The notes under the pieces were generated by a model. The model did not search any database and had not been told where the DNA came from. It saw nothing but the letters and a program-made list of their open reading frames with translations. Made by a program: the position numbers and the translations under genes. Shown here piece after piece: positions 16,912-18,455 of a DNA stretch of 37,576 nucleotides; position 1 is the first letter of the stretch; each line of letters opens with the position of its first letter. This DNA comes from Halorubrum sp. Boch-26 (GTDB lineage: Archaea; Halobacteriota; Halobacteria; Halobacteriales; Haloferacaceae): assembly GCF_029889805.1 (NCBI RefSeq), contig NZ_JARANT010000018.1:1-37576 (forward strand), written 5' to 3'.

Positions 16912-17057
16912 ACGGGTCAGTTGCGATCGACCGGGTTTACCGGTTGGGATCCGTCCGGCGGCGCGGCCGGATAGACGATCGGCCGCCCGCGATCGGCCGT
17001 CCGCCCGACTCGCGAGTGGGAAAGGGTTTGTCGACGGAGGCGAAACGGCCCTTCCAG

Positions 17058-17972
17058 ATGTCTCACCGGGACGATCTACGCGAGGCGGCCGACGCCCTCG
17101 GCGGCTCCGTCGCCGTCTGCGGCCTCGGCGCCTACGCCGACCGGCTCGCCGGCGCCGAGTTTCGCGACGCCCGGTGCGCGACGGCCGCGGAGTTGCTCGC
17201 CGAGGGGCCCTCCGTGGGCGATCGCGGCCCCGCGTCGGAGGGCGCCGGGGCGCCCGCGTCGCCGACCGAGCCCGCGGCGGTCGTCGTCGCCCTCGACCCC
17301 GACGACGTCGACGGCGTCGGCGAAGTGAGCGAGACGCTCCGCGCGCTCGCGGACCGCGACGCGTTCGCGGTCGCGGTCGTCCCGGCGGCCGCCGCCGATG
17401 AGGACGCGCTCTCACCGGTCCGGGAGTCCGTCGGCGCCGTGGTGGTCGCCGAGGACGACGCCGTCGAGGCGGCGATTCGCGCGTTCCTCGCGACGGTCCA
17501 AGAGCCCGGGTTCGTCAACCTCGACCTCACCGACGCCGAGACGGTGCTCTCGGCCGGCGTCGCCGCGCTGGGAACCGGGACCGCCGACCGCGACGCGCCG
17601 GCGGCCGCGGTCGCGGGGGCCTTCGACGGGCTCCCCGCCGGAGTCGACGCGACCGACGCGAGCGCGGTGCTCGTGGACGTGGTCGTCGACCCCGACACGA
17701 GCGTCACGGCCGCGACCGACGTGATCGCGGCGGTCAGAGGGCGGATCGGCGCCGACGCCAACGTGATCTGGGGCGGCGCGGTCGACGAGGCGGCCGCGGA
17801 CGAGCTCGCCGTCCGGCTCGTCGTCGCCGGCGTCCGCCACGCCCCGCCGCTCACCGCGGGCGATCCGTGCCCGCGCTGTGGCGCGTCGCTGTCGGCGTAC
17901 GAGTTCGGCGCGCGGGAGACGCTCTCGTGTGACGGCTGCGGCTACTCCGGTATCGCGGTGCGGCGCGGGTGA
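17058..17972 (+). CDS. Degenerate FtsZ-like protein with C-terminal zinc ribbon
   Basis: 304 residues. From about residue 139 it aligns by eye with the second half of FtsZ. QEPGFVNLDLTD matches the synergy (T7) loop, with Asn154, Asp156 and Asp159 in the positions of the FtsZ NxDxxD catalytic residues. VLVDVVVDPDTS and DANVIWGGAVDE, then DELAVRLVVAGV, match the FtsZ C-terminal domain. The N-terminal half (about 15-135) is shortened and has only a weak VAVCGLGAY in place of loop T1. The GGGTGTG tubulin signature is absent, replaced by an acidic DPDDVDGVGE stretch. A zinc ribbon follows with Cys271, Cys274, Cys291 and Cys294. It probably cannot bind GTP normally. The ATG at 17058 is chosen over 16944 because the upstream part lacks conservation. 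Role unknown; a modulator of FtsZ filaments is one inference. Confidence 0.75.
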   Translation: MSHRDDLREAADALGGSVAVCGLGAYADRLAGAEFRDARCATAAELLAEGPSVGDRGPASEGAGAPASPTEPAAVVVALDPDDVDGVGEVSETLRALADRDAFAVAVVPAAAADEDALSPVRESVGAVVVAEDDAVEAAIRAFLATVQEPGFVNLDLTDAETVLSAGVAALGTGTADRDAPAAAVAGAFDGLPAGVDATDASAVLVDVVVDPDTSVTAATDVIAAVRGRIGADANVIWGGAVDEAAADELAVRLVVAGVRHAPPLTAGDPCPRCGASLSAYEFGARETLSCDGCGYSGIAVRRG

Positions 17973-18002: not shown

Positions 18003-18455
18003 TCAGCGCTGCGGTTCGTCCGGTGCGGCGCGCGGCTCTCGGTTCGGAGCGGCTTCCCGGGGCGGGGGGGTCGCCTCCTCGCGGTACAGCCGGAGGAGCT
18101 CTTCGAGGACGACCGCGTGCCGGTCGCCCGGGACGTACTGGTGGTCGATGAAGTCCTCGGCGTCGCTGAAGTTCCCGCGGAGCGCCAGCTTCCTGACGAA
18201 GGCGACGGAATCGAAGAACGGCGGGTGGTCCGCGTCGGCGTCGACCCCGAGCTCGCGATCCGCCTGCGGCATGACCTCCGCCCTGATATCCTCGTAGTCG
18301 ATGGTCTCCGGCTCGTACTCGTCGAGCACCTGATTCAGCACGTAATCGGTCGAGAACCGGTAGAACTCGGATTTGCTCTCGAACTGGCCGCTCTCGACCA
18401 GCGACTCGATCTCGCCGACCACAGACTCGGGAAACCGAACCGTGCTCTTCACCAT
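18003..18455 (-). CDS. Ribbon-helix-helix transcriptional regulator
   Basis: 150 residues. The N-terminus KSTVRFPESVVGEIESL with SKSEFYRFSTDYVLNQV is a classic RHH (CopG/MetJ-like) DNA-binding domain (about 2-45). The central part (about 75-130) is a helical conserved extension of unknown role, and the tail is Pro/Arg-rich. RHH regulators such as CdrS control ftsZ2 in haloarchaea; this protein may belong to that broad group, but I cannot prove it. It is convergent with the FtsZ-like gene (30 bases between stops) and divergent from the V4R-like gene. A TATA box about 43 bases upstream suggests a short leader. Confidence 0.87.
   Translation of the reverse strand: MVKSTVRFPESVVGEIESLVESGQFESKSEFYRFSTDYVLNQVLDEYEPETIDYEDIRAEVMPQADRELGVDADADHPPFFDSVAFVRKLALRGNFSDAEDFIDHQYVPGDRHAVVLEELLRLYREEATPPPREAAPNREPRAAPDEPQR

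Follow-up and report, generated by a model that had tools for sequence, protein, structure and literature searches.

The window analysed here, a stretch of 37,576 nucleotides from Halorubrum sp. Boch-26 (contig NZ_JARANT010000018.1), carries an uninterrupted frame for a strongly acidic protein (net -31), the stop codon of which lies at 17970-17972 (table 1). The FtsZ C-terminal domain (Pfam FtsZ_C, PF12327) is recognized at residues 167-259 with an E value that passes the cutoff (1.7e-9), and residues 131-261 match both M. jannaschii FtsZ in a phmmer search of the PDB (E 1.5e-13) and the NCBIfam model TIGR00065 (ftsZ; E 3e-13), the latter at 49.8 bits, far under its cutoff of 295.2. Pfam zinc-ribbon matches at residues 268-296 are weak, coming only near the cutoff. 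An earlier note, made from the letters of this DNA, had described an FtsZ second half with the T7 motif NxDxxD at N154, D156 and D159, a short N-terminal half devoid of GGGTGTG, and a four-cysteine ribbon (C271, C274, C291 and C294). The T7 residue numbers are right, the cysteine positions are exact and GGGTGTG is indeed missing; the N-terminal half, however, is not merely short, being a reduced FtsZ N-domain that has lost its nucleotide-contacting segments.

Upstream of the gene, a GAAnnGGTTTGTCG-like or TATA-like GTTTGTCG element, kept among Halorubrum orthologues (upstream regions L005-L015), is found about 25-31 bases 5' of the ATG and, from its position, is probably the promoter of a leaderless transcript.

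Table 1. Features of the locus (window coordinates; residues of the encoded protein).
Feature	Coordinates	Strand	Basis or remark
Probable promoter of a leaderless transcript: TATA-like GTTTGTCG preceded by a BRE-like, purine-rich stretch	17020..17033	+	conserved in aligned Halorubrum orthologues
FtsZ-like pseudo-GTPase CDS, 304 aa	17058..17972	+	ATG backed by conserved N-terminus and upstream conservation
Residues 1-49: H0, S1, H1 of reduced FtsZ N-domain, without the T1 loop GxGGxG	17058..17204	+	
Residues 51-73: linker replacing FtsZ S2-H2-S3-H3 (T2, T3)	17208..17276	+	low confidence, high dN/dS
Residues 74-131: S4, S5, S6 core; T4 GGGTGTG and T6 lost	17277..17450	+	
Residues 136-159: H7 and T7 loop N154-L-D156-L-T-D159 (loop 17517-17534)	17463..17534	+	N, D and D kept by 27/27 members
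Residues 160-260: FtsZ C-terminal (GTPase-activating) domain, invariant IWG 237-239	17535..17837	+	PF12327 in 27/27, Foldseek
Residues 268-300: zinc ribbon C271-x2-C274-x16-C291-x2-C294, replacing FtsZ tail	17859..17957	+	Cys in 27/27, weak Pfam matches, hairpin in model

The retention of T7, the loss of the nucleotide pocket and the addition of a ribbon, first suggested for this single protein, turned out to be common to all 27 members of an aligned family. Each of them has the NxDxxD motif and the four ribbon cysteines, canonical FtsZ1 and FtsZ2 being without the ribbon. In a motif count, the T1, T2, T4, T6 and H7 nucleotide motifs were found in none of the 27, as against 20-25 of 25 FtsZ1 and all 14 FtsZ2 sequences; likewise absent from every member are the end of the FtsZ tail, ID[YF]V, and the CetZ/tubulin signature GGGTG[ST]G. 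PF00091 matches no member and PF12327 matches all (best E 5.9e-15). When the family profile is aligned with that of FtsZ1 (probability 100, E 2e-40), the alignment spans the N-terminal helix, S1, S4, S5, S6, H7 and the C-domain, while two parts of FtsZ1 are deleted, the H6/T6 region and the segment with T2 and T3.

The AlphaFold model of the window protein (P0001, built with an alignment) has a pLDDT of 87, with 56-61 for linker residues 51-70, and a pTM of 0.82. FtsZ fills the entire top 50 of its Foldseek matches, with M. jannaschii FtsZ first (E 1.3e-14), and also comes first for the model of a protein of a divergent clade (L028; pLDDT 81, E 2.6e-15). As modelled, the fold is that of a complete but reduced FtsZ, the N-domain being a shortened Rossmann core without nucleotide loops rather than missing, and the ribbon is a putative beta hairpin (strands 277-283 and 286-291) that bears two CxxC knuckles. 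The FtsZ C-domain expected from the sequence is thus present in the model; neither of the outcomes named in advance as contrary, the lack of a tubulin-like fold or membership of an unrelated family, occurred.

The profile derived from the 27-row alignment was run on 391 Halobacteria genomes, 29 of which encode full-length homologues at 229-369 bits, the top canonical FtsZ scoring 141 bits. The orthologues lie in six genera and three taxonomic families: the window's genus, represented by 46 genomes, accounts for 14 of the carriers, the named relatives being Halorubrum species, and the remainder belong to five other genera. In a single-sequence search of Halobacteria, the close relatives came from within the genus and the distant ones from elsewhere in the class. 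Such recurrence of the same architecture in 29 of 391 genomes is more than chance. Among 295 genomes sampled across the phylum, none from outside Halobacteria exceeded 144.4 bits and no members were found there. Collections of plasmids, phages and viral contigs also gave no match, and a mobile or viral origin was rejected. Because most Halobacteria lack the family, its role is accessory.

A tree that includes canonical FtsZ1 and FtsZ2 shows the family as monophyletic (support 100/99) and, with FtsZ2 as root, places it tentatively with FtsZ1, its branch being long; CetZ is excluded from the final tree, a CetZ-rooted version having been set aside because the CetZ branch is too long. A decaying pseudogene or an annotation artefact might be invoked, and one Halorubrum genome (G204) does contain a decayed fragment (L029:814-1056), in which IWG has become VRG and two ribbon cysteines are gone, changes in keeping with a loss of function. 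Since 29 genomes from six genera have intact copies, dN/dS is well under 1 and both start and promoter are conserved, this explanation is very improbable for the family and is refuted for the window copy by its conservation. Five Halorubrum genomes that lack the gene still have the neighbouring methyltransferase, with no relic within 1.5 kb. The family is a paralogue of archaeal FtsZ, FtsZ1-like, and not a broken gene.

Gene neighbourhoods, compared at 25 loci, fall into at least four different contexts, with no shared division gene and no conserved partner. Within Halorubrum, one group has a methyltransferase and BolA next to the gene and another has a type II/IV secretion ATPase; a third clade has a MatE transporter and a fourth a levansucrase-like enzyme near salactin. 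In one clade (L055-L058, e.g. L055:2833-3933 on the + strand), salactin (PF25229, E 1e-187) and an archaellum FlaD/E-like gene (L056) are found only a few genes away from the family gene, so that cytoskeletal and motility genes share one region. Genome G287, unlike the other loci examined, has the family gene and ftsZ1 about 4.5 kb apart (L046:8359-9237 and L046:13751-14926). In the window, a ribbon-helix-helix-like protein (MVKSTVRFPESVVGEIESLVESGQFESKSEFYR...) is encoded convergently at 18003-18455 on the - strand, and several Halorubrum keep it, not always adjacent. A link of this gene to CdrS/CdrL was considered and rejected: the CdrS match is weak, restricted to residues 1-36 and far below the cutoff, and a second genome from this clade has the gene about 3 kb away from the family gene.

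Across the 27 members, 18 alignment columns are invariant (M1, V20, N154, D156, D159, T162, V206, I237, W238, G239, C271, P272, R273, C274, Y281, C291, C294 and G295). In the part from H7 to the C-domain, compared among 13 representatives at a median identity of 35%, eight of 132 residues are invariant, and the probability that all three T7 residues fall among these eight by chance is 1.5e-4. When the window gene is compared with six relatives, dN/dS is 0.20-0.45 over residues 131-262 (T7 and C-domain) and 0.06-0.31 in the ribbon, the linker having the highest values of the protein (about 0.5-2.4). By these rates, purifying selection acts on the family and is strong on the ribbon. It might be argued that the protein is a structural remnant with a role unrelated to FtsZ, in which T7 persists only for capping helix H8 and packing the C-domain; T162, IWG and other residues nearby are likewise invariant, neighbourhoods vary by clade and the distribution is patchy. 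We find this rather unlikely, in that the three catalytic polar residues stay exact despite drift to 35% median identity and that in thaumarchaeal FtsZ the GTP-binding motif did not go alone but T7 was lost with it (PMC3684127), a contrast that suggests that T7 is here kept for a reason.

The cysteines of the ribbon are as invariant as T7 and under strong purifying selection, and the ribbon stands in for the FtsZ tail, of which ID[YF]V is gone. These features, together with the fact that placement of the FtsZ ring in archaea is an open question (PMC7617429), would also suit a regulator linked to the division site or the nucleoid, the ribbon binding DNA or protein and the FtsZ part recruiting it there or keeping FtsZ away, by a logic comparable to that of SlmA or ARC3. 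Zinc ribbons, however, bind many things and the protein carries a net -31; such a regulator, in effect a spatial version of the reading preferred below, seems rather improbable. Elsewhere in the same genome a 60-aa zinc-ribbon protein (L004:1489-1671) has a ribbon 45% identical to that of the FtsZ-like protein and is possibly the donor or a sister of this domain; an ORF similar to it occurs near the FtsZ-like gene of H. aidingense (L035:8254-8463).

The window's genome and the other member genomes tested encode both FtsZ1 and FtsZ2, and all FtsZ1 and FtsZ2 sequences compared keep the T2 motif. CetZ-like proteins coexist with the family in the same genomes and the logic of a T7 face would be applicable to them, so that the partner might be CetZ or another tubulin-superfamily protein instead of FtsZ; the family is FtsZ1-like by sequence and in its N-terminal helix, however, and the T7 segment differs in the CetZ-like protein of the window's genome, which makes such a partner distinctly improbable.

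Filaments of FtsZ and tubulin have composite active sites, the pocket coming from one subunit and the T7 loop from the next. In FtsZ, the GTP bound by the lower subunit is reached by residues N208, D210 and D213 from the subunit above: N208 touches the neighbour's D46 and Q48, and the catalytic water is held by D210 and D213; in a polarity model monomers add via the GTP-bound top face, the assignment of filament polarity, and hence of the end that would be capped, being tentative in the literature (PMC8936486). The family appears to have lost the nucleotide (top) face and kept the T7 (bottom) face. Its T7 loop would be placed, in the manner of an FtsZ subunit, on the GTP bound by FtsZ1, FtsZ2 or both, giving a dead-end, one-sided subunit which donates a T7 loop and accepts none and behind which, because its nucleotide face is missing, no further subunit would add. 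GTP-bound monomers would be sequestered, or the GTP-exposing end of a filament capped, and GTP hydrolysis might be triggered at the capped end; the ribbon, in place of the tail, probably provides a contact for localization or partner binding. It is the invariance of T7, together with the presence in FtsZ1 and FtsZ2 of the T2 that it contacts and its absence from the family itself, that suggests a donor-only subunit. Our main reading, to which we assign a probability of about 0.5, is thus of a pseudo-GTPase paralogue of FtsZ whose T7 face would dock on GTP-bound FtsZ and cap or sequester it. The pattern of conservation fits the proposal of the earlier note that such a protein could cap, stimulate or terminate FtsZ1/FtsZ2 filaments. 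Points that count against our reading are that no conserved neighbourhood ties the family to division genes, that its role is accessory and that the T7 residues may be retained for folding. More tentatively, the family may be a new branch of the tubulin superfamily in which the one-sided, ribbon-tethered subunit, offering T7 in trans, would be a GTPase-activating cap that controls ring assembly.

Surveys of archaeal tubulin-superfamily proteins mention non-canonical members, and no description of such anatomy was found in them (PMC9856176, PMC9871819 and PMC7617429; main texts of open-access papers), which agrees with the view of the earlier note that this is not a described branch. The protein may be a previously undescribed, built-in regulator of cell division in some salt-loving archaea, and the family offers a concrete, testable candidate regulator for the placement of the haloarchaeal FtsZ ring, itself an open question (PMC7617429). 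A natural protein that keeps one half of an active site and deletes the other would also be a tool by which binding, hydrolysis and filament polarity could be separated. If the proposal were true, ring assembly in haloarchaea would be controlled by an FtsZ-derived, one-sided branch of the superfamily.

Among known systems, archaeal FtsZ1 (PF00091 and PF12327) has in common with the family the C-domain, the T7 NxDxxD motif, the IWG strand, the overall fold and helix H0 (MTDDEL... in FtsZ1, MTTDEEL... in the family), but the family is without the T1, T2, T4, T6 and H7 motifs, has S2-H2-S3-H3 and the H6 region deleted and ends in a zinc ribbon. The thaumarchaeal FtsZ-like protein Nmar_1262 is likewise an archaeal FtsZ homologue without the conserved GTP-binding motif, but it has also lost T7, invariant in the family, and a zinc ribbon is unreported for it (PMC3684127). 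CetZ is, like the family, a haloarchaeal paralogue in the tubulin superfamily; it keeps GGGTG[ST]G, whereas the family lacks this signature and has a T7 of the FtsZ type. Chloroplast ARC3 is chimeric, joining an FtsZ-derived part to a further domain, and acts as an inhibitor of FtsZ assembly, so that it provides a working precedent for the proposed role (PMC8646090), although it belongs to another lineage and its added domain is MORN. Finally, regulators of the MciZ/SulA type bind one-sidedly to an FtsZ assembly face, as predicted for the family, but are not FtsZ homologues and bind the T7 (bottom) face, whereas the predicted target of the family is the nucleotide (top) face.
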